This document shows, in pieces, positions 1 through 22,271 of a stretch of DNA of 64,000 nt. The notes below the pieces were generated by a model. It was not told where the DNA came from. It worked only from the letters and a program-made list of their open reading frames with translations, and searched no databases. A program made the position numbers and the translations under genes. This DNA comes from Bacteroidia bacterium (GTDB taxonomy: Bacteria > Bacteroidota > Bacteroidia > UKL13-3), in the NCBI GenBank assembly GCA_014376805.1, contig JACMQU010000117.1:1-64000 (forward strand), given 5' to 3'. Positions within the stretch are counted from its first letter, which is position 1; every line of letters starts with the position of its first letter.

Positions 1-3000
1 AAGCCTGGTAAATAATAACTGTCCGCTTGTATTGGTAACGCGTATGCTTCCACTGTTTGAACTAATAACTTTTATAGGAACCTGAGACATGTTTGCAGTG
101 CTTCTGAAGTGCGTGGTTTTGCCATTTATAGTATAGTCATATTCAAGCACTTTATTATCAGAAAATTTGCCGGTAAGTTTTGCTATGGCCATTAATGAAT
201 AGGCTGTTGTTTGTGTACTCATCCACATATCACTTGCAAGTTGTTTGCTAATTGTTTTTAATAAGCCCAATGCTTTTGTTTTTTCATCCAACAATATTAA
301 GGTTTCCAACATCATCGCTTCATCTCGTTCGGCTGAACCATAAGTGTACATATAATAAGTGTTGGTGGTATATTGATTTGTAGCTATCATTTTTTCGGCG
401 TTTATTAATGCATGTGCAATGTCTTTGTTGCCGCAAATAACATATGTTGCCGCTAGCCTCCATCGTGCAGCAGAACTGAGCGTATGCGATTCTTTTAAAC
501 GATTCATAGCACCTAATTCCGGGGCTTTGGCAAGTGCAAGGGTGTATAAACGGTATGCCTGCACCTGGTCGTTATTCCACTGCGATGATTGTGTCCATGA
601 TGAGGCTTTATTGCGCTGATATTTTTTCCAGTTGGCCAAAAAATTAACAGGTAATGCATAGCCTTCGTTTTGTGCTTCTATCATAAAGTGTCCGGCATAA
701 CTCGTTGCCCATTCGTCCGCATTTTGTTCCCCCGGCCAGTATCCCATACCTCCTTCAGAAGTTTGAAAGAGCCTTAATTTTTGAATGCCTGCTTTTACAT
801 TTAGTTCAATCTCTTGTTTCCATCCTTCATTCAGATCCAGTAATTTATTTAACGATAACTGAGGGAATACAGCCGAAGTAGTTTGCTCTACACAACCATG
901 CGGATACTGAATTAAATAGCGCAACCTGTTTTCTAAATTGATGGGTGGAATACCCGACACTTCCAGAACTGCTGTATTGGTGCCGGCCATACCGGGTGGT
1001 GTATATTTCGTCTCCCATGTTTTATTTGCTTCAACAGTTCCTTCATAATAATTACTTGCATAAGGATTGGGGTTCCTTACATCTAATTCCACTTCATAAA
1101 ATGCTTTTTCAGCACCGGCGCTTACCATCACTTTTACTTTTGCAATGCCTAAAATACTTCTTACTTTCAGGTCAAAATCTATTACCTCATCGCCGGGCTT
1201 TGTAAAACTGATAGTTTTTGTTGAACCGCCCAAAACCTGCACCAAATTATTCCCTGTAACTTCCACCTTCACCTGTTTAATTTTGTCCTCCATTGCAAAT
1301 ACATTAACAGGTAATTTAACAATTTCACCGGAACGTAATACTCGTGGTAATGTTGCCAATACCATCAATGGTTTTTTAACAGGCACTGCTTTCTCCGCAA
1401 AACCATAAGCACCTTCATAACCTGCAACTAACATTACACGCACTGAACCCACATAGTTTTCAATGTTAATGGTGTGTTGAGTCGACTTGCCTGCCTCTAA
1501 ATTCAGTGGGCCTATAAATTTTACAACAGGTTTAAAACGCTTTGCTTTATTGGCTCCCGATTTCCTGTTTATACCTTCATCGCCACCAATTGATAATATG
1601 CGGTTAAACTGTGTTCCAAATGCGCCCATTACAAAATCAAACATATCCCAGGTTTTAACTCCAAGGGCTTCGCGTGCGTAAAAACTTGTATGTGGGTCGG
1701 GTGTCTTAAAACGTGTCAGGTCAAGCAATCCTTCATCAACAATAGCAAGTGTATATGTCATTGCTTTTCCACTACCTTCGCTCACTGTAAGGGTGTTCAG
1801 TTGGTCAGGTCTTATTTGGTTAGCCATCGTTAATACAGGTACAAGTTTAGTTGTGGGATCTTCCACTTTAACAGGCATCATGCCATACATACGAATAGGC
1901 AAATCGTTGATTGTTTGTGCGTGGGGCTGAACCAATGTGATATGAGCATATACATTAGGCAGCATGCTTTTTGTGATTTTAAATGAATAACTTGTTTGAC
2001 CTTCCCTGGCTTCAATCCAGTGTGTTTCCAATACCTCAGAGCCAGATTCAATACTTAACAAAGCTCGACCGGCTTTAGGCGTAGGCATGTTTAAGCTGGC
2101 AGTTTCACCAACGCGATACACTGTTTTATTCATGCTAAAAGTTAACATAGCTGCTTCAATTGGGTTATCCCTGTTAGCTCTCCCGGCCCATCCCGGCCAA
2201 TCCATGTAAAACACTTTAGCCGTTGAGTGCCCGTCTTCATCGGTTACTTTTAACAGGTATCTTCCCCACTCGGGATAGTTAACTTTGAAATTAAACCTGC
2301 CTGTTCCATTTACTAAATTAATTTCCTGTTGTTGCAAACTTTTATATTCTTCATTTTGAGAATAGGAGCTTAAATCTTCTGTTGATCTGTCCCACCACCA
2401 GCGCCAGTTAACTTTATACAATTGCGCAGTTACGCTTCTTGAACCCTGAATTAAAGCACCTTCGGGGTTTACACATACTATCTGAACCGATTGCATGGTA
2501 TCGGTTAAAAGCATGCCCCTTGCATTATCACCCGTAGGAATTTTGATTCCAACATAAGCAGTATATGGATTATATGGAATAGAAAATCGATCAATGCTAA
2601 AGCTCCCTCCGGGTTCAAAAACTTTGGTAATAAAATTAGCATTGAGCTTCCCTGCAGGACTATTTTTAAAGGCGAGATCCATGTTTAAATTAGCTTCCCC
2701 ATTTTCATCCAGGCGGCCTTCAAAAACTGTTCTTACGTCCGATTCAAATTTTTTTGTCGGGTCATCAAAATCATATTCCGGATACCGTTTAAAAATTGTT
2801 GTTGCCGGTGTTAATGTGGCTTCAACTTTAGCGTTCAAACCATCGGCAATAGCACCATGTAACCAACGCGATTTAAGGGTGGTGGTAATTTTGTCGTTTT
2901 TTGTAAGATACGGTTTGTCAAAATTCAGCTCTATTTTTAAGCGATTTGGCATTACTGTTTCTATTCTTATATTTTTTTGAAAAGTAATACCACCTACTTT

Positions 3001-5154
3001 AATTTTGGCCTGCCAGATACCGGTTGGGGCATCCACATCGGTACATGTTCTAAAGCTGTAAAACCCATTAAGCGATGCGCTTTGAATATGCCTTTTATAT
3101 AAACTGCTATTGGGATCAAACAGCTCAAACGAAACAGGATGCATGGCCGGCAGTGTTTTATTCCGGTCTTCCAGAATAAAGGTGAGGTATAATGAATCGT
3201 CCGGCCTCCATACACCGCGTTCGCCATATATAAAACCTTTCAATCCTTTTTGTACTACATCTCCAGAAACATCAAACTGGCTTATGGGTAATGATGAACC
3301 CTCATCTAATTTTAAATAGGCTCGCTGATCCTTTAATTTGGCAATTGCAAGAAAAGGTTTTCGTTCTGTTAAAATCTTTACTAATCCCTCATTATCTGTA
3401 GTTGCAGTAGTTATTACCTGTTGCTGATAATCGAGCAATTCAATGGAAACACCGCTTACTGTTTGTGTGGTTACTAAATTTGTAACCGCAAATAAATATT
3501 CTTTGCCCGAACCCTTCTTTGCTATAATACCAAGGTCTGAGGCCATAACATTTCTGGTAACCCATCTCGCACTGGTAAAGTAAGAATTGTGGCAGGGGTT
3601 ATCCCGCTCATTCCAATTATAAGCTGAACCGTAATTGCCTTCATATTCATCCCAGTAACTTTCTTCATTCAAATTCTCTTCATCCCAGTTCTCTTCATCT
3701 ATAACCTGCATTCCTTCCTCTTTAACTGTTGCTTGTTTGTCGTTGTCGCAACTGTATAAAGAATATGCTTTTTTGAAAGTTATTTTAACCTGGTAGATCG
3801 CTCCTTGTTCAGCTTTTATCATGTCGTCAAGATCAATGGCAAAATGATTCGACTTGTGTAAATCTGTTAGTTTATCCGTATCTAATCGAATTGTTTTTTT
3901 TACCAGTGGTCTTCCAACCCTTACCAATTGATTAGATCCATTCATATCATTTACCTGGAAGAACTGGGCGATATTATTTTCATATATTTTTATTATGGTA
4001 ACATCAACTGCATTTAATCCAACAGCTTCAAAAGGTAAAATAAGTTTATTGCTTGCTGGCATAATTACCCCTTTACCTAAAAACTTCACCGCTGGTAAAA
4101 GGTCGGCAAAATCAAGATCAAATGATTGTGTATGTTTATGTTTAAAACCCAGTACGTTTTGAATGCCCTGCATAACATTTAAACGATGCGAACCCTTTAA
4201 GTTAATACCGGGATAGCATTTAACCTGGTTTCCATCAATTGTAAATTTTATATCAATATTATTTGTTGTAGCCGTATGGGTTAATTTGTCAAAATGAATA
4301 AGTCCGGTTAAGTCCTGGCTCGTTAAAATAGGATCAGAAAAATACAGGGAAATATATTGTGCTCCATCATACACCACTTTTACGCCCATCACTTTAAAAT
4401 CGCCTAATGCCGGTATCTCTACTTTGTGTTCACCTTTAACGTTAATACCCAATGGTTTGCCTTCCCATTTTATAAGCAGTTCGCCTGCTGTTGTTTTTCT
4501 AACTATACTGTCTATTATATAACGGTGTGTACGTTTATCTGCTGCATGTTCCCATTTAATATGAAAACGATTTCCTTCCTGTACAGCAAGTAATAATTCT
4601 TCGGTTTTTTTATCCTCTTCTGTATCTGCGGTAAGTAAGGTGCCGCTTATTCTTTGATATATTTGCCGGATAGGATCAATCGATTCAAATATTGGATACG
4701 ACACTTCAACTGATTGCGGAATAATGGAAAATTGGAATGGAAATTCTTCAAGTTCTTCCGGAACAACTAAAATGCGTTTCAATAAAAATACACCTTCATA
4801 TTTTTCGCCTGAAACCATCGGTTTTTCAGGCTTAAATTCAATGGTAGAAGCATCAATCCATTTAGCTTCTCCTTTAATTTTAGGGCTGAACTCAAACACC
4901 TCTGCTATGGACCCAACCTTGCTGCTATCTGCAAAATTACCTGCAAAATGTATTCTAATCCTTGCATCGCGGGAAATTATTCCTGCAGTATGTGCACTGA
5001 TATAACTTGCAAATGCCGGGTTTATTCTATCCTGTTTTTTATGGGCTGAACGAGAGGTGAAAAAATAAATAATTCCTATTATTGCGGCTATACTGATAGC
5101 CATAAAAATGGTTTTGGTGCTAAATTTTTTAGCAGGAGGGTTGGGGTTATTCAT
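1..5154 (-). CDS. Alpha-2-macroglobulin family protein, incomplete (C-terminus lies beyond the left edge)
   Basis: Manual minus-strand translation from ATG at 5154: MNNPNPPAKKFSTKTIFMAISIAAIIGIIYFFTSRS... (N-terminal TM/lipid anchor-like). The frame is still open at base 1 (...SNSGSIRVTNTSGQLLFTRL). Contains IQYPHGCVEQTTSAVFPQLSLNKLLDLN (CxEQ thioester motif, codons at 883-894). Absent from the ORF track because there is no stop in the window. Confidence 0.88.
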   Translation of the reverse strand, partial: MNNPNPPAKKFSTKTIFMAISIAAIIGIIYFFTSRSAHKKQDRINPAFASYISAHTAGIISRDARIRIHFAGNFADSSKVGSIAEVFEFSPKIKGEAKWIDASTIEFKPEKPMVSGEKYEGVFLLKRILVVPEELEEFPFQFSIIPQSVEVSYPIFESIDPIRQIYQRISGTLLTADTEEDKKTEELLLAVQEGNRFHIKWEHAADKRTHRYIIDSIVRKTTAGELLIKWEGKPLGINVKGEHKVEIPALGDFKVMGVKVVYDGAQYISLYFSDPILTSQDLTGLIHFDKLTHTATTNNIDIKFTIDGNQVKCYPGINLKGSHRLNVMQGIQNVLGFKHKHTQSFDLDFADLLPAVKFLGKGVIMPASNKLILPFEAVGLNAVDVTIIKIYENNIAQFFQVNDMNGSNQLVRVGRPLVKKTIRLDTDKLTDLHKSNHFAIDLDDMIKAEQGAIYQVKITFKKAYSLYSCDNDKQATVKEEGMQVIDEENWDEENLNEESYWDEYEGNYGSAYNWNERDNPCHNSYFTSARWVTRNVMASDLGIIAKKGSGKEYLFAVTNLVTTQTVSGVSIELLDYQQQVITTATTDNEGLVKILTERKPFLAIAKLKDQRAYLKLDEGSSLPISQFDVSGDVVQKGLKGFIYGERGVWRPDDSLYLTFILEDRNKTLPAMHPVSFELFDPNSSLYKRHIQSASLNGFYSFRTCTDVDAPTGIWQAKIKVGGITFQKNIRIETVMPNRLKIELNFDKPYLTKNDKITTTLKSRWLHGAIADGLNAKVEATLTPATTIFKRYPEYDFDDPTKKFESDVRTVFEGRLDENGEANLNMDLAFKNSPAGKLNANFITKVFEPGGSFSIDRFSIPYNPYTAYVGIKIPTGDNARGMLLTDTMQSVQIVCVNPEGALIQGSRSVTAQLYKVNWRWWWDRSTEDLSSYSQNEEYKSLQQQEINLVNGTGRFNFKVNYPEWGRYLLKVTDEDGHSTAKVFYMDWPGWAGRANRDNPIEAAMLTFSMNKTVYRVGETASLNMPTPKAGRALLSIESGSEVLETHWIEAREGQTSYSFKITKSMLPNVYAHITLVQPHAQTINDLPIRMYGMMPVKVEDPTTKLVPVLTMANQIRPDQLNTLTVSEGSGKAMTYTLAIVDEGLLDLTRFKTPDPHTSFYAREALGVKTWDMFDFVMGAFGTQFNRILSIGGDEGINRKSGANKAKRFKPVVKFIGPLNLEAGKSTQHTINIENYVGSVRVMLVAGYEGAYGFAEKAVPVKKPLMVLATLPRVLRSGEIVKLPVNVFAMEDKIKQVKVEVTGNNLVQVLGGSTKTISFTKPGDEVIDFDLKVRSILGIAKVKVMVSAGAEKAFYEVELDVRNPNPYASNYYEGTVEANKTWETKYTPPGMAGTNTAVLEVSGIPPINLENRLRYLIQYPHGCVEQTTSAVFPQLSLNKLLDLNEGWKQEIELNVKAGIQKLRLFQTSEGGMGYWPGEQNADEWATSYAGHFMIEAQNEGYALPVNFLANWKKYQRNKASSWTQSSQWNNDQVQAYRLYTLALAKAPELGAMNRLKESHTLSSAARWRLAATYVICGNKDIAHALINAEKMIATNQYTTNTYYMYTYGSAERDEAMMLETLILLDEKTKALGLLKTISKQLASDMWMSTQTTAYSLMAIAKLTGKFSDNKVLEYDYTINGKTTHFRSTANMSQVPIKVISSNSGSIRVTNTSGQLLFTRL

Positions 5155-5512
5155 AGTGGTTATTGCTCTTGATTTTTAGAACAAGTAACAAAAATTATTT
5201 TGAACTTTGAAAAGAGAAAAATCAGGATGATGACTAGAACAATCTTTTCAACTTATTTTAAAAGAAAAAAATATAATAAAGGGAACTTCTATGGCTTAGA
5301 TTACTGCACTTTTGGTTCAGGAAAATAAATAATATTTACTGGATTTTTTTATCAACAGGCGCTTTGGCTTCTACTTTATAGAACTCTTAGGGCAGTGTTA
5401 TCGTTCTTCTCTAATGAATTTTAAATGGATAAACTTTCTTTCTGTAATAATAGAAATTTTATGTGTTTTATCCTTTTGACTAACCCTTTGCACACACTCT
5501 TTTTTATTTAAT

Positions 5513-6364
5513 CTACTTAATTATAAAAAACTCCTGATCTAAACCTTTTTTATGTTTGTGAATTGATTTAATCAACTCCAGTATATTGGCATCTATAATT
5601 TTGTTAAAATTAAAATTTATTTTTTGTTCATCATAGCGCTTTTTACTCCCTGCGGTTTTAATTAATTTTTCTATGTTTACAGGGGTAAAAAATTTTGCTT
5701 TGTTTGGGAGATGCCTTTTGAACTCATTTATATATATGCCTATTCCGGCAAAATCAAAGTCGCCAAAGTGTAAGTAATTGTTAGGTATAATTTGCAGCCA
5801 TTTAATTAAGTCCTTACTTTGGTTCTGCGGATAACGGCTTACAAAAAGAGGCTTGATATGTTGAAACAAATGAAGCTGTTTATGGATGAGTCTAAAGTTT
5901 TCAGCATTCTCTATTCCTACAATAGTAACGTCTGGTTCGGGCATAAAATTTTCAAAATCAGATATAAAATGAAAAGTTCCGCTGGCTGGGTTAAGTATAT
6001 ATGGCTGTCCGTTTAATAAAGTATTTAAAGGCATATAAGTGTTCACTAAAAAACCTTTGAAGGTTCTAACTGATTTCAGTTTAGAATCGGTGGCAATGGA
6101 TACTAAATCTGCCCTAATTAAATCTGTGCTTTTTAGAATTTCAATGTAGGTGTATAGATCATTAATGCCAAAATGGTTTTTTAAATAAAATTGCAGTTGT
6201 TGTTTATCGGCAATCTGAATTGTGCTTTTAATTTTACCGGGCTTATGGATAATTCCTTCAGATAATAAATCTCTAATAATTGCATGCTTTAGTTTGCTTG
6301 CAGGTATCTTTTCTCCACCGTTTAGTAACAGAAGTTTTTCGGCAATATTTAAAGGCAGTTTCAT
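5513..6364 (-). CDS. jetD-like: JetD/MksG-like Toprim-domain nuclease subunit of a Wadjet-like system
   Basis: 283 aa. Toprim-like motifs IVGIENAENF (E152) and HFGDFDFAGIGIY (D202/D204), C-terminal GLDQEFF. ATGA overlap with the upstream SMC-like gene. Wing-helix-like N-terminus. Confidence 0.72.
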   Translation of the reverse strand: MKLPLNIAEKLLLLNGGEKIPASKLKHAIIRDLLSEGIIHKPGKIKSTIQIADKQQLQFYLKNHFGINDLYTYIEILKSTDLIRADLVSIATDSKLKSVRTFKGFLVNTYMPLNTLLNGQPYILNPASGTFHFISDFENFMPEPDVTIVGIENAENFRLIHKQLHLFQHIKPLFVSRYPQNQSKDLIKWLQIIPNNYLHFGDFDFAGIGIYINEFKRHLPNKAKFFTPVNIEKLIKTAGSKKRYDEQKINFNFNKIIDANILELIKSIHKHKKGLDQEFFIIK

Positions 6365-9300
6365 TGCCGTTCTCTATTATTAGTGATTAAACGATTAATG
6401 ATTGTTACACTCTTATCATCCTTTGCTAACTTATAAGTGTACCTGTATGCAAGTGCATCAAAAGATTGCGGTGAGCTGTTTATCAGATTTATATTTCTGT
6501 CGTTAGCAAATTTTAAAATGCCCCTAACGTTTGTGGGATGAAGTTTTCCAATTTCATCCATCATACAATGAAGCCTGAAATCTTTAAATCTGTTTTTTGT
6601 TGCGCCTTCCTTAAAAACATTTAAAAGCATAATGTTTATCATCGCTTTTACTAAAACATCCGTTCCATCAGAGCCAACATTGGCCAGATTCTGCACCCAG
6701 TTTGTGTCGTTGTCATTCTCAACAATTTTAAATTCTAATTCAAATGAATCAGAAAGATGAATGTCGTTGTGTTTGTAATTTGAGATTTCTTTCACCAATA
6801 AAGACAATAACCCTACCGCTTTTTTATTTTTCGTTTCTCTCGTTTGCTCGTTGTTTGAAAACAAATTCGCTTCCCCTAAATCATTTATATTTTCATCATT
6901 AAACTTTTTTATTTCCATCAAAAGATGAACAACTTTGTTTGCACTAAAAGCAACACGTAATTCTATACTTTTAATCACACCGGCAAAATTTCTTTTTACA
7001 AAATCTTTATTTATATCGCTGATTACTGTCCGTATTTCCCCTTCTTTTGAGAGCAGTTCTGTAGTTTCTTTGCCAACTTGTTTTATAATGTCGGCAAAAA
7101 GTTCATTCACTCTTTTCTCATAAAGTGATATTTTGTCTTCATCAATAAACTCTTTCAAGTCTTCTGCAAATTGAAAAAATTCAGACTGCTCTATTAGATT
7201 TAATTTAAACTTGAAAATATTCTGAGTATGAAAATTTCCATTAAATTTATTAATTGCTTCCTGTAATTCTCTGTATCTGTCAATACCCTTGTAATGTGTA
7301 TTATTTAATTCTTCTATTAAAATTATGCAGCGTTTTTCTGTTCGGAATTCATCAGTTGGTTCAGCGGATAGATCCTTAATACTTTTATAACAATCGGTCA
7401 ATTCAAATAATTTATGCTTTTGCAGATCTTCTGCAATGTTTGCGAGTTGTTGCGCTATTACTAAAATCGTAGATTTAAGTATATCAATTTCAGCAATCAA
7501 CGTTAGTCTCTGCGTATGGTGTTTATCTTGCTCAATCCCCAACTGATTTTCAAAATTTGTTTTCTGGTTTTTAAAATGCTGCACCTTATCAAATAGTTGC
7601 TCTTTGTCGTATTTATATCTCTCTGTAATGGAAGTATTATTTCCAATAAATTCCAATTCAGTTGCTACTTCTGATATTTTTATTTCAAGGTTCAAAATCT
7701 TTTTTGTCTCTGCACCTTTATCGTTAAATTCTTTTTTCTGCTCCTCTTTCAGAATATTGATTTTTTTATGAGTATCAATTTTTTTATTCTGAACTTCAGA
7801 ATTTATTAAAGCAATTACTTCATCAACTTTCTTTTGTGCTGCATCTACATTGTTTTTTTTGTCTTTTTTCCTGTTTTCAATTTGCTTCTTACTTATGTTT
7901 TCAATACGATTAAATTCATTTTCAGCATTTAATTTTGCTTCACTTATGAGCTGTATTTCATGGTCAATTTTGTTTAAAGCCGATTGCTTATCACTTGCTG
8001 CTTTATTTATAAGTTCTTTAATGTTTACTTTTGCTTCATTCAGTTTTATTTTATGCTGTTCATTTATATATTCGTTATTGCGTATAACATCTTTACACTT
8101 GCTGATTTTTTGCTGGTATTTGCGCTTCAGGTTTTCTACATCATTACTCAATTGTTCTGCAAGCGTAATAATGTTCTTTTGTATACCGGTAGTATGGTTT
8201 TTTAATTCTGCTTTATCGTTTTCATAGTCAGAAACGGTTTTAACAGTTTTGTCTATTTCAGATAGATCTAAGCGGATTCCATAAAAATTAAAATCCGACG
8301 AAACTTTCTCAGGAGATAATCCCGACTTAAATAATATAGTATCTTCATCAATAACTTTCCCAATTGTCTTTTGCCAACCGGGATATTCTTTATTAAGCCA
8401 GCCGTAAAAAGAATTTTTACTATTTTCTAACTTATCGCTTATGGAAACAATTTGATCATCGATGCTGCTTATTTGCTGAATAAATTTTTCTCTCTTGTTG
8501 GAGGCAATTTCTTCAACTCTATCTTTCTCTATCTCCCATTGTTTTTTAAGGGTTACTTCTTCATCTGCTTTTAGCGTTATTTCATTCTCAGAAATTCTTA
8601 TTTTTTCTTCAAAATTATTTATATCATGCGTGTACTTTTCAATTTCAATTTCATAATAGCGCTTATGCTTTATTTCTGCTTTTGAAATTTGTAAATTATT
8701 AATGTTTTGCTTTTTTTCTTCCAGTAAATTTTTTGCAAATTGCAATTCTTCCAAATGTTGCTTTTTTATGTCTTCAACTAATTTGTCATATTCTTTTACA
8801 AGTTTTTCTTTTAGCTGAAATAAATTTTCATTTAAAATATTAATATCAGTTTGTTTTGCATTCTCAAAAGCTGACAATTGATTTGTAAGCTGATTTATTT
8901 GAGCTTCATATTTTTGTTTAATATCAATGAACCTGGCTTCCAGTACTTCCTTTTGACTGTTAAAGTCATCTCTTTCATTTTCCCGCTCTTTCTTTTTTGC
9001 AACTCTTTGAATAATGTTTTCAATAGTCAGGGAGATTCCATTTATATTTATGTTTTCATAAAGTTGATACTTTTCTTTTGCCTCTTTTATTTTACTTTCA
9101 TAAACACTTATTTCGGCAGTTATTTTATCTTTTTTTGTCTGAAATTTTTTATCAATTTCAGAAATTTTATTACCTAATTGAAATTTCTGAGCCTCTTCAC
9201 TTTGCAATTTTTCTGAAATTTTCGGTTGTTGATTTTTGATTTCATTAAATTGCCATACTAATGTCCTGGCCAATTGTTCTTTTTCCCTACTTAAAAATTT

Positions 9301-10062
9301 AATAGCTAAAAATATGGTAGCAACTGTTTCAGCCTGCTTACGAACTATTATTTCACCACTCTTTGTTCTATCAGTCCATTTTTTAATATCCGTAAGCTGA
9401 GTGTCGAAATCCTTGAGATGATGGGAATAGTTTGATAAGTCAATATTAATTTCCTCTTCATTTAAAGACTTAATGATGGTGTCTTTAATAAATTCACTTT
9501 CTACTTTATAATTTAGAAATACATGCTGAATTGCTCTTGGAATATTTTGATATTGTTTGCTTTCAAGAATTGAATATTTTCTGAACTCAGCACCCACACC
9601 TTGACTGTTGCCATAAAGTATATTTCTATAATCATCGTATTTGTCAATTTTTCTTGTATAACTTATTTCTTTTCCAAATGATAATTTCAGTTTATCCCAG
9701 GTTTCATTAGCCCTTCCTTCATTATTGATAAAATATTTTTTGTCATAATGGGTATCTATAAAACGGTAACATGCCCTGCCCTGTGATTTGAAAACCAGGA
9801 TGCAATAAGGTCCGGTTTCCCTTATCACTTCATAAATAATATAGGAGTCCTGATAAGGTAAATAGAATTCAACAAAGCTTTTTTTACCCACCGGAATTCC
9901 CAGTTTTTGTTGATTTGCATTATAGAAAAAAAGCAAAGCCCTGAGTAAAGTGCTTTTACCAACACCTTGCGTTCCTATAAAATGAACATTTCCATCCACA
10001 TTTATTTCTGAATACTTTATTGAAGCACTATTGATGAATATAATTTTACTCAGGTATCTCAT
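6361..10062 (-). CDS. jetC-like: JetC/MukB/MksB-like SMC ATPase
   Basis: 1233 aa. Walker A FIGTQGVGKSTLLRALLFFY near the N-terminus, very long charged coiled coil, C-terminal VGSDGTDVLVKAMINIMLL (ABC signature-like) and LHCMMDEIGKLHP (Walker B). Confidence 0.82.
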   Translation of the reverse strand: MRYLSKIIFINSASIKYSEINVDGNVHFIGTQGVGKSTLLRALLFFYNANQQKLGIPVGKKSFVEFYLPYQDSYIIYEVIRETGPYCILVFKSQGRACYRFIDTHYDKKYFINNEGRANETWDKLKLSFGKEISYTRKIDKYDDYRNILYGNSQGVGAEFRKYSILESKQYQNIPRAIQHVFLNYKVESEFIKDTIIKSLNEEEINIDLSNYSHHLKDFDTQLTDIKKWTDRTKSGEIIVRKQAETVATIFLAIKFLSREKEQLARTLVWQFNEIKNQQPKISEKLQSEEAQKFQLGNKISEIDKKFQTKKDKITAEISVYESKIKEAKEKYQLYENININGISLTIENIIQRVAKKKERENERDDFNSQKEVLEARFIDIKQKYEAQINQLTNQLSAFENAKQTDINILNENLFQLKEKLVKEYDKLVEDIKKQHLEELQFAKNLLEEKKQNINNLQISKAEIKHKRYYEIEIEKYTHDINNFEEKIRISENEITLKADEEVTLKKQWEIEKDRVEEIASNKREKFIQQISSIDDQIVSISDKLENSKNSFYGWLNKEYPGWQKTIGKVIDEDTILFKSGLSPEKVSSDFNFYGIRLDLSEIDKTVKTVSDYENDKAELKNHTTGIQKNIITLAEQLSNDVENLKRKYQQKISKCKDVIRNNEYINEQHKIKLNEAKVNIKELINKAASDKQSALNKIDHEIQLISEAKLNAENEFNRIENISKKQIENRKKDKKNNVDAAQKKVDEVIALINSEVQNKKIDTHKKINILKEEQKKEFNDKGAETKKILNLEIKISEVATELEFIGNNTSITERYKYDKEQLFDKVQHFKNQKTNFENQLGIEQDKHHTQRLTLIAEIDILKSTILVIAQQLANIAEDLQKHKLFELTDCYKSIKDLSAEPTDEFRTEKRCIILIEELNNTHYKGIDRYRELQEAINKFNGNFHTQNIFKFKLNLIEQSEFFQFAEDLKEFIDEDKISLYEKRVNELFADIIKQVGKETTELLSKEGEIRTVISDINKDFVKRNFAGVIKSIELRVAFSANKVVHLLMEIKKFNDENINDLGEANLFSNNEQTRETKNKKAVGLLSLLVKEISNYKHNDIHLSDSFELEFKIVENDNDTNWVQNLANVGSDGTDVLVKAMINIMLLNVFKEGATKNRFKDFRLHCMMDEIGKLHPTNVRGILKFANDRNINLINSSPQSFDALAYRYTYKLAKDDKSVTIINRLITNNRERQ

Positions 10063-10621
10063 GTTTGGCGTCTTCTGATATGTTGATGGAAATTATTAAT
10101 TGTTCAAGGTAATTAAATGATGCCAGTACTTTATATTCATGCGAGATTAAGTTTTCAATTTCAATAAATTTATCTTTTTCAAGGTCATTTAAAATTTTTT
10201 CAATTATCTCATTAAACTTATCTTTTCCTGCGCTGTATCTTTTTAATGCCTCTAATTTAGTTTTCAATTCCGCATCTAAATTTAGTTTAACTAAAATGTC
10301 AGACGGAGTAAATCTAAAACCTGAGCAAAAGGAGCTGTCAAATGTTTTTAAGAAATCAAGAATATCTATCCATTTAAATGCTTGTTCAATTTTTCTTTCC
10401 AAATCAATTTTATTTTCAAGCCGCGAAAAATAATAATACTCATTTCCCTTTTCCAAAATGAAACTGATGTTTAAAAAGTAGTCATATAAATAATCAAAGT
10501 TTTGATCCTCTTCAATAACCGTATAAAGTTTTCGGATAAATTCATCATTACTGTTAGAGCAAATAAATTGCCCTCTGCTGAGTATTTCAAATATGGAAGC
10601 TGTTTGTTTAGGTATATTCAT
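10046..10621 (-). CDS. jetB-like: JetB/MukE/MksE-like small KITE-type subunit
   Basis: 191 aa acidic helical/winged-helix-like protein directly upstream of, and overlapping by 17 bp, the SMC-like gene. Call is mostly by size and synteny. Confidence 0.6.
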   Translation of the reverse strand: MNIPKQTASIFEILSRGQFICSNSNDEFIRKLYTVIEEDQNFDYLYDYFLNISFILEKGNEYYYFSRLENKIDLERKIEQAFKWIDILDFLKTFDSSFCSGFRFTPSDILVKLNLDAELKTKLEALKRYSAGKDKFNEIIEKILNDLEKDKFIEIENLISHEYKVLASFNYLEQLIISINISEDAKHEIPE

Positions 10622-10623
10622 TG

Positions 10624-11826
10624 TTAAATTCCTATCGGATAAACGAGTGCAAATTCTACTTCTTTATCGGCATTAAATTTTTCTGTTACTTCATATAAAG
10701 TTTCATACTGAGAAATCATTTGACAATAAACAGTTACCTTTTCATCATAAGAAAGTCTTTTTTCAAAATTGTAACCCATCACAAATTCAAACAAATTATT
10801 TCCCGAGGCTAAAAATCCATTATTTACTTCTTCCAGATTGATTTGAATTTCCACTTCGGTATATGTTTGCAAATAATCATTTGAAATATTTCCGGCAAGT
10901 GGTAATTTATGGTTAGCAACTGACTTTGATTTTTTAGCAACTTTTAAGATACTTCCGTATGCATCATTGTCAGTTTGCAAATATTCCAATGACAACTTCA
11001 GTGGATACGACGGATTTGATTCAAAAATAACCAGGTCACTTTTAAAAATTACTTCATCTATGTCGGTGGCAGCTCTTATCGTAAACTGGTCTCTCAAATA
11101 TTTTAATTGCCGCAATTTTTCAATAACACCGCTTTGATATTTGATCTGATTGAGATATTCAATAATCTGTTTTTGAATTTCAATCATGTTGTGCCTGCAC
11201 TCATTTAATTGAAGTTTCAGATCGATTATTAAGCGGTTAAGTTCATCATCTAACGCGGATTTGAAAAAAGTTTGTTCATCTTCAGAAATGAGCTTATCTG
11301 TTTGTTCAATAAACAAATTAATGTCTTTGCGCTTTTCATCAAGGTTCTCCAGTTTCGTCTTCTTGTTTTTATAATTCGGTTCGTTTTTAAACGTATTTTC
11401 AATGTTCCTTTTTAAGTCTATTACATTTCTGAAAGTAATATTTCCGATTTTTCTTAACGTGTTTTTTACCTTTCTCAGGTAGTCGTATTTTCTGTTTTCT
11501 TTGTTCTCTTGTAAGTAGTAAAGAATGTTTTCTTTTACACTCCTGATATTGTCATTAATCGTAGCTATATTTAATTCTTCGTTCACATCCAGCACATCTT
11601 CAAAAAATTGCAAAAACTGGTCGTCAATTTCTAAGAAATTACCGTTTGATCTTATTACTGCGTGATTAATCAGGAATTGAATTCTGTCATCATTGTGGTC
11701 AACAACTTCCAGCGCAAAATCATACTTATAAGCAAGCATTTTGCGCTTTTCAAACATTTCTGTTAAAATTTTATGCTCTCTTATAAGTGTGGAAAGCAGT
11801 TCCTTTATAGAAGTAAAAGTATTCAT
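10624..11826 (-). CDS. jetA-like: JetA/MukF/MksF-like kleisin subunit
   Basis: 400 aa. Predicted N-terminal winged helix (ALEVVDHNDDRIQFLINHAVIRSNGNFLEIDD), central helical region, 2 bp upstream of the small subunit gene. Call is by architecture and synteny. Confidence 0.6.
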   Translation of the reverse strand: MNTFTSIKELLSTLIREHKILTEMFEKRKMLAYKYDFALEVVDHNDDRIQFLINHAVIRSNGNFLEIDDQFLQFFEDVLDVNEELNIATINDNIRSVKENILYYLQENKENRKYDYLRKVKNTLRKIGNITFRNVIDLKRNIENTFKNEPNYKNKKTKLENLDEKRKDINLFIEQTDKLISEDEQTFFKSALDDELNRLIIDLKLQLNECRHNMIEIQKQIIEYLNQIKYQSGVIEKLRQLKYLRDQFTIRAATDIDEVIFKSDLVIFESNPSYPLKLSLEYLQTDNDAYGSILKVAKKSKSVANHKLPLAGNISNDYLQTYTEVEIQINLEEVNNGFLASGNNLFEFVMGYNFEKRLSYDEKVTVYCQMISQYETLYEVTEKFNADKEVEFALVYPIGI

Positions 11827-11938
11827 TTATAAAGTTTGTAAAGCAAACATAATTGGTGTTTGTAGGTGAATTTATTTATAAATGTAGTTCAAGGTCATTA
11901 TCTTAATTCAGAGCATTAATTAGATTTTTTTGTTTCTC

Positions 11939-13528
11939 TCAGGCACGTATTACACCCGGTTTAAATTCCTTGGTTATCGGCGCATTGTTAGCGGCTTCAA
12001 TACCCATGCTAATCCATTTGCGGGTATCAACCGGGTCAATAATAGCATCAACCCAAAGCCTGGCAGCAGCATAATATGGCGATGTTTGTTTAGTATAACG
12101 ATCTGTAATATTTTTAAGGAGGGCAGCTTTATCTTCGGCCGTAATAATTTTACCTTTTGCTTTTAACGATGCTTCTTCAATCTGCAATAAAACTTTTGCG
12201 GCTTGTGAGCCTCCCATAACAGCAATGTTAGCGTTAGGCCATGCTGCTATTAAACGCGGGTCGTAAGCCTTGCCACACATCGCATAATTACCTGCACCGT
12301 AACTATTACCTGTTATGATAGTAAATTTTGGCACTATCGAATTGGCTTGGGCATTAACCATTTTAGCACCGTCTTTTATAATGCCGCCTTGTTCACTTCT
12401 TGAACCCACCATAAAACCGGTAACATCTTGTAAAAACACTAAAGGAATTTTTTTCTGATTGCAGTTCATTATAAAGTGTGCTGCTTTATCGGCACTGTCG
12501 GAGTAAATAACACCGCCAATCTGCATCTCACCTTTTTTTGTTTTTACTACCATTCTGTTATTGGCAACTATGCCCACTGCCCATCCGTTAACACGTGCAT
12601 AACCACATAAAATTGTTTTGCCATACAGTTCTTTATATTGGTCAAACGAACCTGCATCAACAATGCGTTCAATTATTTCAACAACATCAAATGGTTTGGC
12701 TGATCCTATTATATCTGTTACAGTAGACATTTCTTTAGCAGGCTCAACCGGATCAATGTGATTAAAACCTGCCTTTTCAAAATATCCTATCTTATCCATG
12801 ATGCTTCTAATGCGGTCAAGGCAGGCTGCATCGTTTTCAAATTTATAATCAGTAACACCCGAGATCTCGCAATGCGTAGTGGCACCACCTAATGTTTCAT
12901 TGTCTACATCTTCACCAATGGCTGCTTTAACAAGGTAACTGCCGGCTAAAAATATCGAGCCTGTTTTGTCTACAATCATTGCCTCATCACTCATAATGGG
13001 AAGGTATGCGCCACCTGCAACGCAGCTTCCCATTACCGCCGCAATTTGGGTTATGCCCATACTGCTCATCACGGCATTGTTTCTAAAAATTCTTCCGAAA
13101 TGTTCTTTGTCGGGGAAAATTTCATCTTGCATTGGTAAAAATACACCTGCACTATCCACCAGGTAAATAATCGGCAACCTGTTTTCCATAGAAATTTCCT
13201 GCGCACGTAAATTTTTCTTGCCGGTAATGGGGAACCATGCTCCGGCTTTTACCGTAGCATCATTGGCAACTACAATGCATTGTCTGCCGCTAACATAGCC
13301 CATCACCACTACTACCCCGCCGCCCGGGCAACCTCCGTGTTCCTCATACATCTCATAGCCTGCAAGGGCTCCTATTTCAATGCGTGGCGCATCTTTATCA
13401 AGCAAATAATCTACCCTTTCTCGGGCCAGCATTTTGCCTTTTTCTTTTTGTTTACCTGCAGCTTTTTTGCCACCACCTTCATAAATTTTTTCAAGTCTCT
13501 GTTTCAGTTCTGCTAAAAGATTTTCCAT
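11939..13528 (-). CDS. Acyl-CoA carboxylase beta subunit (carboxyltransferase; methylcrotonyl-/propionyl-CoA carboxylase type)
   Basis: 529 aa. Carboxyltransferase motifs: ARERVDYLLD, GGCPGGGVVVVMGYVSGR, VDSAGVFLPMQDEIFPD, MGSCVAGGAYLPIMSDE, GNSYGAGNYAMCGKAYDPR. Confidence 0.93.
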   Translation of the reverse strand: MENLLAELKQRLEKIYEGGGKKAAGKQKEKGKMLARERVDYLLDKDAPRIEIGALAGYEMYEEHGGCPGGGVVVVMGYVSGRQCIVVANDATVKAGAWFPITGKKNLRAQEISMENRLPIIYLVDSAGVFLPMQDEIFPDKEHFGRIFRNNAVMSSMGITQIAAVMGSCVAGGAYLPIMSDEAMIVDKTGSIFLAGSYLVKAAIGEDVDNETLGGATTHCEISGVTDYKFENDAACLDRIRSIMDKIGYFEKAGFNHIDPVEPAKEMSTVTDIIGSAKPFDVVEIIERIVDAGSFDQYKELYGKTILCGYARVNGWAVGIVANNRMVVKTKKGEMQIGGVIYSDSADKAAHFIMNCNQKKIPLVFLQDVTGFMVGSRSEQGGIIKDGAKMVNAQANSIVPKFTIITGNSYGAGNYAMCGKAYDPRLIAAWPNANIAVMGGSQAAKVLLQIEEASLKAKGKIITAEDKAALLKNITDRYTKQTSPYYAAARLWVDAIIDPVDTRKWISMGIEAANNAPITKEFKPGVIRA

Positions 13529-13676
13529 GTAAGGATTTTTATTTTATAATTATTTTTTTAGTTGATAAGCTATATGCCAAGGGCAAAAGCCAAAAGCATT
13601 TGCTGCAAAACTATTATTCGTAAACGAATTTCAAAGTATGTTTGCAAGGTTGTGAAGAAAAACCTACTTTTGACCC

Positions 13677-13772
13677 GGGTGAGCCCTGTACGACCAGCTC
13701 CCTCTAATCCCCCAGGTCAGGAATGAAGCAAGGGCGTGAGGTTTGTAGCGGTGCGATGCAGTAAGCTTGCCC
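13677..13772 (+). ncRNA. ffs: Bacterial small signal recognition particle RNA (4.5S-type)
   Basis: Core CCCCCAGGTCAGGAATGAAGCAAGGG. Terminal stem GGGTGAGC (13677-13684) pairs with GCTTGCCC (13765-13772) including G-U pairs. Followed by a T-rich run. Confidence 0.85.
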
Positions 13773-14171
13773 ATTTTTTTTTATTTGGATTGTTTATTTT
13801 TCTTACTTCATCCCCATGTTTTTTGGTAATTTTAATTTGATAAGCAGTTGCACAGATTTATACGAAGTTGGCAACAGTGCTTATGCGTAATTCTTGCAAG
13901 CAATTAAGCTAAACCACTATTTTTCCCCATTTGTAAAACTCAATTCCCGCCCGATTCTGATCTGGTAGTTGCATTTTTTTTCCGGTTGTTTTATAGTATG
14001 AAATTATTTTATCTATTTTTTCCTCTCTTCAGTGATTAAAGGTGTTGGATCAACTGCGAAGTTTACTCCGGCAGGCACTTTAATGTATCCAATTGTCTAT
14101 TATTTAATTTAATTAAGGCCCTAAATGCAAACTTAAAACAGGTGATTTGAAGATTATCGATTTACATAAAA

Positions 14172-16990: not shown

Positions 16991-19076
16991 ATGAATAAGA
17001 AAACATTATCTGAAAGAGATATTTGCACCAAGTTTATTACCCCTGCTTTAGAGAAAGCAGGTTGGAACAAACTCACCCAGGTATTGGAAGAAGTGAGTTT
17101 TACAGATGGTAAAATAATTGTTCGTGGCAAGTTGACGGCAAGAGGGCAAAAAAGCGGGCCGATTACATTCTCTATCACAAACCCAATATCGCAATTGCCA
17201 TCATTGAAGCCAAAGACAATAAACATATTGTTGGCGCTGGTATACAGCAAGCATTGGACTATGCCGAAAGCCTCGACCTGCTTTTTGTTTTTAGCAGCAA
17301 CGGAGATGGCTTTTTATTTCACGACAAAACAGCAACAGACGGAAATATTGAAACCGAAATCGCTTTAGAAGATTTTCCATCACCCGAACAACTCTGGCAA
17401 AAATATTTAATCTATAAAGACATCCCGAAAAATACAGATGTTGAAAAAGTTATTTCCCAGGATTATTATTATGATGGCTCCGGAAGAAAACCACGGTACT
17501 ATCAACAAATTGCCATTAACCGAACCGTTGAAGCGATTGCCAAAGGTGATAAGAGTGTTGCTTGTGATGGCCACCGGCACAGGTAAAACGTATACAGCCT
17601 TTCAAATCATTCACCGTCTTTGGAAGTCGGGCGCTAAAAAAAGAATCTTGTTTTTAGCTGATAGAAATAACCTGATTGATCAGACAAGAGGAGGCGATTT
17701 TAAATATTTTAAAGACAAAATGACCATCATTAAAAAGAAAGTGGTGGAAGAAAACGGGAAAGAAAAATTAGTTAGTAATAAAAAACGAGGCATAGACAGC
17801 AGTGACAAAGCGTATGAAATATTTTTAGGCATTTACCAGGGTTTAACAAACAATGATATAGGAATTGAAGATGCGTACAAAGATTTTAGCGCTGATTTTT
17901 TTGATCTGATCATTATTGATGAGTGTCACAGGGGAAGCGCAAAAGAAGACAGTGCATGGCGTTCAATTTTAGATTATTTTAAAAATGCAACGCAAATTGG
18001 CTTAACTGCCACGCCCAAAGAAGACAACGTAACAAGCAATTCAGACTATTTTGGTAAGGCTATTTATACTTACTCACTCAAGCAGGGTATTGATGATGGA
18101 TTTTTAGCGCCTTACCGGGTGATCCGTGTAGGACTAAATGTTGACCTGGAAGGCTGGCGCCCTTCAAAAGGGTTTTTAGATAAAGAGGGAAATGTTGTTG
18201 AAGACAGAGTTTACAACCGCAGAGATTTTGATAAGTAAATTGTAATTGCGGAACGTAGAAAAATGGTTGCGAAAAAAATTACGGAGTTGCTAAAAGGTAC
18301 CGACCGGTTTGCTAAAACAATTGTATTTTGTTGTGATATTGAACATGCCAATGGAATGCGCACTGGCATTGCAAATGAAAATGCTGATTTAGTTGCATCA
18401 AACCACAAATATGTAATGCAGATAACAGGCGATAATGAGGAAGGCAAAATGGAATTAGACAATTTTATTAACCCCGAAGAAGCCTGATGGAAGCTGGGTG
18501 GCTCATGAGCCACGACAAAAGATTTATGTAAACGGAATTGATGTTGCCATACTTTCTGAAAGAGAAATGTATTACGACAAAAACGGTCAGTTAATTACTG
18601 TAAGTTTAAAAGATCATACCAAACAAATTATAAAAGGAAAGTATGCCTCACTTGATGATTTTTTAAACAAATGGAACAGTACTGTTAGAAAAGAAGCCAT
18701 CATTACAGAATTGCAGGAACAAGGAATTCTGGTTGATGCGATAATGGCAGCAGTTGATAAAAATTTAGACTTGTTTGATTTAATTTGTCATATCGTTTAC
18801 GATCAGCCAACACTTACAAGAACAGAAAGAGCAAACAATGTGAAGAAGCGAAACTATTTTACGAAGTATGGAGATCAAAGCCGCAAAGTATTAGAAGCAT
18901 TGCTTGATAAATACGCAGATGAAGGAATTGAAAACATTGAAAGCATTGAAGTATTAAGGATAAAACCATTTGACGAATTTGGTTCTCCAACAGAAATAAT
19001 TAGAGAGTTTGGAAGCAAGGAAAATTATCTTATAGCAATTAAGGAGTTAGAAATTGAATTATACAAAACGGCTTAA
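16991..19076 (+). pseudogene. hsdR: Type I restriction endonuclease R subunit, degraded
   Basis: Homologous pieces spread over ORFs 16991-17368, 17254-17586, 17438-18238, 18263-18487 and 18498-19076: IIEAKDN nuclease motif, [31 protein letters not shown]-terminal DGSWVAHEPRQKIYVNGIDVAILSEREMYYD. Two frameshifts, an in-frame TAA and an internal deletion. Confidence 0.9.
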
Positions 19077-19144
19077 AGATGTTTATAAAATAGGAAAATA
19101 AAATTTGGAACCATTAACCATAAATATATATTTGCAATTAACAT

Positions 19145-19190
19145 GCTCACCCCGCTTCCCGATGATCAGCGCGCTTAGGGTGGGCTTTTT
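19145..19190 (+). terminator. Rho-independent terminator-like hairpin between hsdR remnant and Abi gene
   Basis: GCTCACCC (19145-19152) pairs with GGGTGGGC (19178-19185, one G-T pair), followed by TTTTT. Confidence 0.6.
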
Positions 19191-19204
19191 ATGTTTTTAG
19201 AGGT

Positions 19205-20093
19205 ATGAGTAAAATTAACTACAACAAGCCTCCACTTAGTTATTCCCAACAACTTGTTCAACTCAAACTAAGAGGATTGATTATTGAAAATGAGCAAAAA
19301 GCACTTCATTTATTAGAAAATATTAGTTATTACAGGTTAAGCGGATATTGGTTTCCATTACTAATTAATAAAGAAACCCATCAATTCAAACCAAATAGAA
19401 ACTGCGTTTAATTTATATTGTTTTGATAGAGAATTGAGACAATTAGTTTTAGCTGAAACGGAAAAGATAGAAGTAGCCATTCGCGCAAAAATGATCTATA
19501 TCTTTTCTCATATACACGGACCTTTTTGGTTTCAGGATGCTGCAAATCTTTCAAAGCCTGATAAACATGCTATGTCTTTTTCTAAAATAGGCGAAGAATT
19601 TAAACGAAGTGATGAAGAGTTTATTAAGGCCTTTAAAAGTAAATATACTAACCCAATTCCGCCAAGTTGGATGACGCTTAAAATTACTTCATTCGGAACA
19701 TTATCCCTTTTATATAAAAACCTTAAACCTTCAACACAAAAAAGAGAAATAGCAAATTATTTTGGTCTATCAGATGTTGTATTTGAAACATGGATACACA
19801 GCATTGTTTACCTTAGAAATGTTTGTGCACACCATACTCGCTTATGGAACCGTGCAATGAGTATACAGCCCCAAATACCAAGGGCGCCAAGAAATCAGTG
19901 GTTAAATAATACAAAAGTAGCTAACAACAGAACTTATTTTATTTTGAGTATGGTAGCTTATTTATTGCAAATCATCAATCCTCACAATAAATTTACAGAT
20001 AAATTCAAATCACTATTGGAAAAATATCCAAATGTAGATACCAAAGCTTTAGGGTTTCCGAATGATTGGGAAAATGAACCACTATGGCAATAA
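19205..20093 (+). pseudogene. Abi_2 (AbiD/AbiF-type) abortive infection family protein, frameshifted
   Basis: ORF 19205-19411 (SYSQQLVQLKLRGLIIENEQKALHLLENISYYRLSGYWFPLL) and ORF 19434-20093 (upstream-extended QIETAFNLYCFDRELRQLVLAETEKIEVAIRAKM ... RNVCAHHTRLWNR, HEPN-type RxxxxH) form one protein split by a frameshift near 19392-19400. Confidence 0.85.
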
Positions 20094-20104
20094 AATAATA
20101 ATAA

Positions 20105-20341
20105 ATGAGCAATATTTCAGGAATAATAGCAAGCATCAGAACAATCATGTGGCAAGACACCGGTTTGAATGGAGATGCACAACGTATTGAACAATTAGGG
20201 TGGATGCTGTTCTTAAAAATATTTTCCGACAAAGACCTTGAACTAGAGTTGATGGACGCTGATTATAAATCTCCAATCCCTGCCGAATTTCATTGGATAA
20301 AAGAAAAAGGAAACTGGGCTGGCGATAATGAAGGAATAACC
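20105..20341 (+). pseudogene. hsdM: Type I restriction-modification methyltransferase, N-terminal stump
   Basis: MSNISGIIASIRTIMWQDTGLNGDAQRIEQLGWMLFLKIFSDKDLELELMDADYKSPIPAEFHWIKEKGNWAGDNEGITG matches the HsdM N-terminus in character. Reading then enters unrelated IS sequence. Confidence 0.8.
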
Positions 20342-20670
20342 GGCTTTAGCTTTTCTCCCATTGCCAACAGGCCATCGCATACATGCCGAAGGCCTGTAAC
20401 ATCAGCTAATACTGAATAGCACATCGTATATAGATGGTTAAGCGTACTGAATTTTTTAACGGCAAAGTCGCTGTCCGTCTGCTTAACTGCTTTAGTTATT
20501 ATTGAGCCCGGTATTAGCTTTAAAACCTGACCCAACGTGTTCTGTCCGAAAAAATATTTACTTTTGTTCATGGTGTTTGGTTGTGCAAAAAACAAAATAC
20601 CATAAAAAAATGGGAGATTACTACTTGTTGGTAACTCCCTTTATCATAAATTTATTTCGGACACTAATGA
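20342..20670 (-). mobile_element. IS4-family (DUF4372-type N-terminus) transposase remnant
   Basis: Minus ORF 20290-20595 contains MNKSKYFFGQNTLGQVLKLIPGSIITKAVKQTDSDFAVKKFSTLNHLYTMCYSVLADVTGLRHVCDGLLAMGEKLK, resembling the N-terminus of IS4-type transposases. The rest of the element is absent. Boundaries are approximate. Confidence 0.7.
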
Positions 20671-20679
20671 TAAATAATA

Positions 20680-22235
20680 ATGAATTCAGAATTTTTTGAT
20701 CATTTAAAAAATTTAATACTAACCCATATTTGTTTATTGGTTCAGGTTTATCACGTCGATATTTGAATTTGCCAACCTGGGAAGAATTGCTCATCAAATT
20801 TTTCAACAACTCCAATATTATTGGTGATTTTGAATATTATCAATCAAAAAGTAACAACAATCTACCAGCCTTAACAAGCGCATTAGCAAATGAATTTCAT
20901 GAGGTTTGGTGGAAGGACATTAAATTTGAAGATGCAAGAACCACTTATAAAACTTTTGCTAAAGAGAAAATAAATCTTCCATTAAAGATTGAAATTGCAA
21001 ACCTAATTCAGAATATTCAAAAACAGGAAAAGCAATTTGATAAGGAAATAAGTTTACTAAAGGAAAGTGTAATAGATGGTATTATAACAACCAATTGGGA
21101 CACCTTTCTTGAAACTGTCTTTTCAGATTACAATGTATTTATCGGACAACAAGAACTATTATTTTCAGAATCAATTTCAATCGGGGAGATTTATAAAATA
21201 CACGGATGTGTTACAACGCCGCAATCTTTAATCATAACAGAAGAAGATTACAATGACTTTAATAACAGAAACGCTTATTTGGCCGCTAAACTTCTGACAA
21301 TTTTTGTTGAACATCCGATAATTTTCATCGGTTATTCGTTGTCAGACCAAAATATTCAACAAATAATTGATTCAATTGTAAAATGCGTTGACACACAAAA
21401 TTTGGATAAACTTAAAGACAGATTGATATTCGTTGAGTGGAAAAAAGGTTCAGAGTTTGAAATAAAGGATAGCAGTATAAAATTACTTGACAATAAAGTA
21501 TTACCTATCAAGCTAATTAAAACAGATTCTTTTGAACCGATATTTGAAACATTGTCAACTCTTAAAAGACAAATTCCAGTTAAAATATTAAGGAAATTAA
21601 AAAATTCTGTTGTGGAGTTCGTAAAATCAAGCACGCCATCTACTCAAATATATGTTAAAGATATTGAATCAATTAATGACGATACAAAGATTGAATATGC
21701 TATTGGTGTGGGTGTGGCAACTCACCTTATTTCTTCCATGGGTTACAAAAGTATTGAAACAATAGATTTAATTGAAGATGTTTTATATCAAAATAAAAAC
21801 TATGATACGATTCAATTGATTGAAAATGCTTTTCCAAAAATGTTAAAGGGAAACGGCTATATCCCTATTTACAAATACCTCAGAGAAGGAAACTTACTCA
21901 CTAAAAATGCTGGGTTAACCTTATTAGCGGTTGCAAAGTTTAAAGGGAAATTTGAATTAAAATTTGATGCGCCAAATTGCTATTTACCTGCTGCTTCTTA
22001 TCAAAAAAAACAAACGGAAATAAGAAGAAACCATCCTGATGTTAACTCCATTATCAAGGCCTTCGATAAAAGTCACACTTTAAATTTTATTCCACTTTTA
22101 GATCCGAAGTCTATTGACCCCAGTCAGCTGGTAAATTTTCTACGAACATGTTTTCATGATAATACAGTAAATAAAACAACACCATTTAGAAAAATAGTAT
22201 GCTTATACGACTATTTAAAAAGTGGTTTAGCTTAG
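20680..22235 (+). pseudogene. SIR2-like domain protein (probable defence effector) with 1-nt frameshift in an A6 tract near the start
   Basis: MNSEFFDHLKK|FNTNPYLFIGSGLSRRYLNLPTWEELL... is restored by one extra A at 20706-20711. Then DGIITTNWDTFLETVF, IYKIHGCVTTPQSLIITEEDY, HPIIFIGYSLSDQNIQQII. The ORF-track start at 20730 is a TTG inside the SIR2 fold, so it is unlikely to be the native start. Confidence 0.8.
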
Positions 22236-22271
22236 TTCATTAAATGAATTAAGAACATATTGAGAACTTAG

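Follow-up and report, generated by a model that had tools for sequence, protein, structure and literature searches.

The window analysed here is a stretch of 64,000 nucleotides, positions 1 to 64,000 of contig JACMQU010000117.1 from a Bacteroidia bacterium of the UKL13-3 lineage (GenBank assembly GCA_014376805.1). It carries on its minus strand a four-gene operon that appears to encode a divergent member of the JetABCD/MksBEFG complexes, centered on a structural maintenance of chromosomes (SMC) ATPase. In the order of transcription, from 11826 to 5513, the genes code for a JetA/MksF-like kleisin of 400 amino acids (aa; 10624..11826), a JetB/MksE subunit of the KITE class (191 aa; 10046..10621), a JetC/MksB SMC-like ATPase (1233 aa; 6361..10062), and a JetD/MksG-like Toprim nuclease (283 aa; 5513..6364). 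All four open reading frames (ORFs) begin with ATG and are free of internal stops, and they coincide exactly with the four co-directional genes that a first-pass annotation, made from the sequence alone, had delineated. The kleisin and MksE genes are separated by 2 base pairs (bp), while the MksE and SMC genes overlap by 17 bp and the SMC and JetD genes by 4 bp; given this tight spacing, the four genes are probably translationally coupled. Scans for a promoter and a terminator of the operon returned signals at chance level, and the promoter probably lies within the upstream junction at 11827..11938.

Two of the subunits are recognizable from their family profiles. The small subunit matches the Pfam MksE family (PF21980) with E=1.2e-40 and 140 bits against a cut-off of 27, which places on firmer ground a KITE assignment that had earlier been made from architecture and synteny alone. 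Similarly, the Pfam DUF3584/MukB-like profile covers nearly the whole of the ATPase (aa 18-1203, E=4e-52), and hence the protein groups with the SMC-like ATPases and not with the ABC or RecN-type proteins outside the SMC class. It displays a Walker A motif (GTQGVGKST, aa 30-38), a conserved hinge-like element (GWL...PGW..TIGKV, aa 554-570), a signature-like motif (GSDGT, aa 1130-1134), and a Walker B motif (CMMDEIG, aa 1166-1172). The G-K-S of Walker A, the GS-GT of the signature, and the D-E of Walker B are invariant in all 80 SMC relatives that we read. The motifs quoted in the first-pass annotation, including IENAENF and GDFDFAGIG of the nuclease, are all present and are invariant or nearly so among the relatives, a degree of conservation well above what chance would give.

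The kleisin has no family match in Pfam, NCBIfam, or PADLOC, and searches of the PDB by sequence, with single proteins as well as profiles, found no relevant solved relative; hence, we turned to structure comparison. An AlphaFold model built from 15 homologues is of moderate confidence (mean predicted local distance difference test score, pLDDT, 74.7; predicted template modeling score 0.47) and has a winged helix at its N-terminus, a beta hairpin at its C-terminus, and long helices. Its best PDB match in Foldseek is the E. coli JetA (8q72_E, E=1.6e-4, probability 0.99), followed by MukF structures (9gm7_C, 7nz2_C1, and 3euh). The matches have low global template modeling scores, which is to be expected when an elongated protein is modeled outside its complex, and the assignment therefore rests jointly on the ranking of the matches, the order of the domains, and synteny, the kleisin gene standing at the head of the operon in most of the 80 relatives. 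Together these features point to a kleisin, as had been proposed from architecture and synteny, and neither this protein nor the small subunit falls outside the kleisin or KITE folds.

The predicted nuclease is detected by the Pfam DUF7281 profile (aa 147-279, E=2.2e-8) and, in part, by the PADLOC JetD1 model (1.1e-5). Its AlphaFold model (pLDDT 85) matches the topoisomerase VI A subunit (Topo VI-A; 1d3y, 2.4e-5) and Spo11 (8urq) in Foldseek, which is the fold reported for JetD (PMC10586767); at the N-terminus, where a JetD would have its CAP domain, the model shows a small domain of helices plus one short beta element. The metal-site residues E152, D202, and D204 are invariant in 71 of 71 full-length sequences, as are N153, Q277, and E278. 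Tyr178 is likewise retained in 71/71 sequences, and Tyr73 in 70/71; either might conceivably play the part of a topoisomerase tyrosine. The fold match and the constancy of the catalytic residues together argue for a Toprim nuclease.

All four subunit identities of a JetA-B-C-D/MksBEFG-like operon are thus supported, and its place among the known systems could be assessed with the PADLOC-DB 2.0.0 models for Wadjet types I-III. The window proteins produced only short, weak matches to these (JetC1 over 43 residues; JetD1 and JetD3 over the Toprim half), as did those of the relatives, whereas the type I models matched the proteins of true type I loci in the same class from end to end. With Wadjet type I, as known from E. 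coli GF4-3, P. aeruginosa PA14, and the C. glutamicum MksBEFG, the operon shares the four subunit classes, the gene order, the match of the kleisin model to JetA 8q72, and the alignable E-N, D-x-D, and C-terminal Q-E motifs of the Toprim domain. Nevertheless, type I is defined by a DUF3375 JetA, a DUF4194 JetB, and a JetD that combines DUF3322 with DUF2220/JetD_C, and the window proteins match none of DUF3375, DUF4194, and DUF3322. In profile-profile comparisons against the local type I loci, the window kleisin, MksE, and SMC scored at background. The description of the operon as compact holds for the kleisin (400 aa versus about 480 in type I JetA) and the nuclease (283 versus about 390 in JetD) but not for the ATPase, which is longer than the type I JetC (1233 versus about 1130). 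As for types II and III, no window protein matched JetA2, JetA3, JetB2, JetB3, JetC2, or JetC3 in PADLOC-DB, and JetD3 gave a partial match at 0.001; searches of the phylum with the JetD3 and JetC2 models, which turned up only weak partial or coiled-coil-like matches, supplied no unambiguous reference locus for either type, and it is by comparison with the models that the operon is set apart from these types.

The Pfam MksE subunit and the DUF3584 SMC are shared with MksBEF(G); the P. aeruginosa MksBEF, however, lacks a nuclease (PMC10586767), unlike the window operon. The E. coli MukBEF likewise has no nuclease; the fold of the window kleisin matches MukF, but the kleisin, MksE, and SMC of the operon are at background against MukF, MukE, and MukB in hhalign (MukB being compared without its C-terminus). 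In profile-profile comparisons the window type pairs at 100% with a JetD-less sister group, here D. A further lineage with a short SMC, here type B, is related through its JetD profiles (hhalign 98%, E=1e-14) and SMC N-terminal heads (98%), but differs in its 883-aa SMC, its gene order of SMC-(JetD)-kleisin-MksE, the usual absence of JetD, and a chorismate synthase neighbor in the genus to which the window belongs. Hence, judged by its sequences, the window operon is of the JetABCD/MksBEFG kind in the broad sense, outside type I and unmatched by the models for types II and III; the weak PADLOC matches, the separation of its profiles from type I and MukBEF, and the near-confinement of its relatives to Bacteroidota bear out the earlier suggestion of a poorly described subtype of that phylum.

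A scan of GTDB genomes confirmed 442 relatives of the SMC, of which the best 80 were read. These are all from Bacteroidota except for a record titled Melioribacter and a metagenome-assembled genome (MAG) labeled Nitrospirae; the SMC genes of the MAGs with these two titles (L074 and L114) are near-identical, reflecting either misbinning or transfer between phyla. Most of the 80 preserve the order kleisin-MksE-SMC-JetD, and a nuclease gene, complete or cut by a contig end, is present in 73 of them, usually right after the SMC gene. The members without it are scattered over the SMC tree, and a candidate substitute effector was sought among their downstream genes and rejected, as these are mutually unrelated in all seven (L078, L100, L111, L138, L143, L151, and L055). 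In L138 (10928-14166), the JetD-less operon is directly followed by the Gabija genes gajA and gajB. At another locus (L057:2299-5981, in G178), the window-type SMC gene is split into ORFs of 594 and 551 aa while JetD is full length, and the same genome additionally has a JetD-less Mks operon (L042). Window-type operons were also seen on plasmid-typed records (L253, L252, and L251): those of Phocaeicola and Persicobacter include JetD, whereas that of Parabacteroides lacks it. The Parabacteroides record, on which NAD synthase and glutamine synthetase are encoded, may be a piece of a chromosome.

Within the class, the window-type nuclease is rare, being found in about 9 of 390 sampled genomes (about 2%) along with two fragments. 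A genome search with a single MksE protein proved too insensitive; the Pfam MksE profile scored above its cut-off in 119 of 395 class genomes, and the type I JetA profile (DUF3375) in 17 of 390. By comparison of coordinates, the MksE match lay solely inside a type I locus in 12 of the 119; with these type I-only genomes subtracted, about 107 of 395 carry other Mks lineages, which span the window type, type B, group D, and a kleisin-KITE-SMC-Toprim set of approximately 440-215-1080-312 aa. This last set occurs in Bacteroidota (L041:2369-8486, L044, L040, and L070), its KITE profile is nearer to MukE, and L041, the sole member scanned, has no proper PADLOC Jet match.

The genomic setting identifies the operon as an accessory, horizontally acquired insertion of recent date. 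It lies between an alpha-2-macroglobulin-like gene on the minus strand (1-5154, cut by the window start, recognized by its alpha-2-macroglobulin Pfam domains; downstream junction 5155..5512) and an acyl-CoA carboxylase-type gene, also on the minus strand (11939-13528), which is a conserved neighbor in the genus. In two sister genomes (G016 and G002) these flanking genes adjoin each other without the operon, and in two others (G003 and G018) different genes lie between them. The guanine-plus-cytosine (GC) content of the operon is 30.2%, versus 38.7% and 41.9% in the two flanking genes, the fraction changing from about 0.30 to 0.40 at the upstream junction. Moreover, a decayed defence island is found 5-10 kb away (16991-22240), with broken hsdR-like pieces of a type I restriction locus, an AbiD-like ORF (19434-20093), an HsdM-like fragment (20105-20419), and a SIR2 gene of the PADLOC family PDC-S25 (20730-22235). 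The empty site, the GC gap, the sporadic occurrence, and the defence island are together the hallmarks of an acquired immune system. Elsewhere in the window lie a Bacteroidales small signal recognition particle RNA (13670-13776, plus strand; Rfam RF04183, E=1.3e-17) and a very long plus-strand ORF (52693-63999), which encodes 3769 aa or more and runs off the window end.

Taken together, the intact ATPase and Toprim residues, the linkage of the nuclease in 73/80 relatives, the accessory insertion, and the defence-like surroundings lead us to posit, with a probability of roughly 0.83, that the product of this accessory operon, acquired by horizontal transfer, is a complex of the JetABCD/MksBEFG type, most likely one that senses the shape of small circular DNA and destroys it. 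By analogy with the characterized type I relatives, the complex would contain two SMC dimers, linked through dimers of the kleisin and with MksE at their sides, and these motors would use ATP to extrude loops and so pull DNA in. Once a small circle had been taken up completely, both motors would stall for want of further DNA, and JetD would then be activated to cut that circle; neither the chromosome nor linear DNA would be attacked. In type I, extrusion of DNA by JetABC dimers comes to a halt when a small circle has been extruded in full, and this stalling triggers the cut by JetD (PMC10586767, PMC10123090), and the C. glutamicum MksG is a nuclease (PMC10123090); loop extrusion, circle sensing, cleavage, and an anti-plasmid function are carried over from these relatives. 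Certain observations weigh against this proposal. Compared with type I, the window JetD has a far shorter N-terminal half, which lacks a DUF3322 match. Since the seven relatives named above, which belong to the same branch, have no JetD, the motor may also work without the nuclease. Further, relatives on plasmid-typed replicons would need self-immunity or an escape by size, even though some such records with housekeeping genes may be mislabeled chromosome pieces. Finally, we found no functional test of any member of the branch in the literature searched.

With regard to the target, it is conceivable, though rather unlikely, that the complex is directed mainly at phages or other circular intermediates, such as circularized phage genomes and integrative elements, a variation that concerns what is cut and not the mechanism. 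Shape sensing would cover any small circle, and phage-defence genes and their remnants lie nearby; nevertheless, the Wadjet systems studied so far restrict plasmids, and circles above about 100 kb or linear DNA escape them (PMC10586767).

The same genome harbors a second Mks operon of type B on contig C182 (486-4887; L035), which encodes an SMC of 883 aa, a kleisin of 398 aa, and an MksE of 178 aa without a JetD, and is followed by chorismate synthase in a neighborhood common to two congeners; neither this system nor the accessory, inserted nature of the window operon had been noticed in the first-pass annotation. Of the 37 family genomes, 33 contain the type B SMC. In 30 type B loci that we read, 29 of them from the family, the kleisin gene directly follows that for the SMC in 26, one ends too early, and three (G015, G027, and G029) have a JetD gene between the two. 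The congener G015 shows 83% identity in the SMC, so the gain or loss of the nuclease must have been recent, and loss is the simpler reading because distant type B members (L038 and L050) carry JetD in the same slot. At the hidden Markov model (HMM) thresholds used, neither SMC_hinge nor ScpA was matched in any of the 37 family genomes, some of which are incomplete and which include that of the window; among 60 relatives, 4 have a match to each domain, and they are the same 4 for both. Across 80 further genomes, only certain families have the hinge; the tested genomes of f41, f9, f20, f37, f15, and f4, in which Mks genes are present, gave no hinge match above the HMM threshold.

These observations bear on the possibility that the window complex is mainly a chromosome-organizing condensin like MksBEF, with JetD in an auxiliary or regulatory role. 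Its close JetD-less relatives (the D clade, L042/L061/L062/L069, and the scattered losses), the lack of a detectable Smc or ScpA in its own family, and the organization of the chromosome by the P. aeruginosa MksBEF without JetD (PMC10586767) are all compatible with such a role. However, the window operon is sporadic and inserted, its JetD retains all metal-site residues, and the other Mks lineage of the genome, being near-universal in the family, better fits a housekeeping function, which makes the condensin role improbable. That decay has already left the operon inactive, as with the visibly broken hsdR region 5 kb away, is less probable still, as its four reading frames are full length relative to those of the relatives and every conserved catalytic motif is intact.

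We therefore retain the proposal of a shape-sensing cutter of small circles for the window operon, and consider the nuclease-less Mks, near-universal in a family without detectable Smc or ScpA, as a candidate, on the basis of its distribution, for the condensin reported in Bacteroidetes, where Hi-C in Bacteroides pointed to "currently unidentified SMC complexes" (PMC10197239). More tentatively, and at somewhat less than even odds, we suggest that in many families of Bacteroidota lacking Smc-ScpAB a divergent Mks lineage, by losing JetD, has become the main condensin, while window-like sisters stay mobile plasmid cutters. If so, immune nuclease and condensin would have been repeatedly converted into one another in Bacteroidota, sometimes with both forms in one cell.

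Thus, while the JetABCD/MksBEFG kind was known, comparison of sequences and models indicates that what is new here is a divergent branch of it, invisible to the defence models tested, and surveys that rely on the type I-III models will miss it. If the branch cuts plasmids, plasmid uptake in Bacteroidota, the gut Bacteroidales among them, would face a barrier that has so far been hidden. That Mks systems with and without the nuclease are paired in a lineage without detectable Smc is of additional interest: the nuclease-less relatives in such families offer concrete candidates for the SMC complexes of PMC10197239, and through them the conversion from defence to condensin proposed in PMC10586767 becomes testable.

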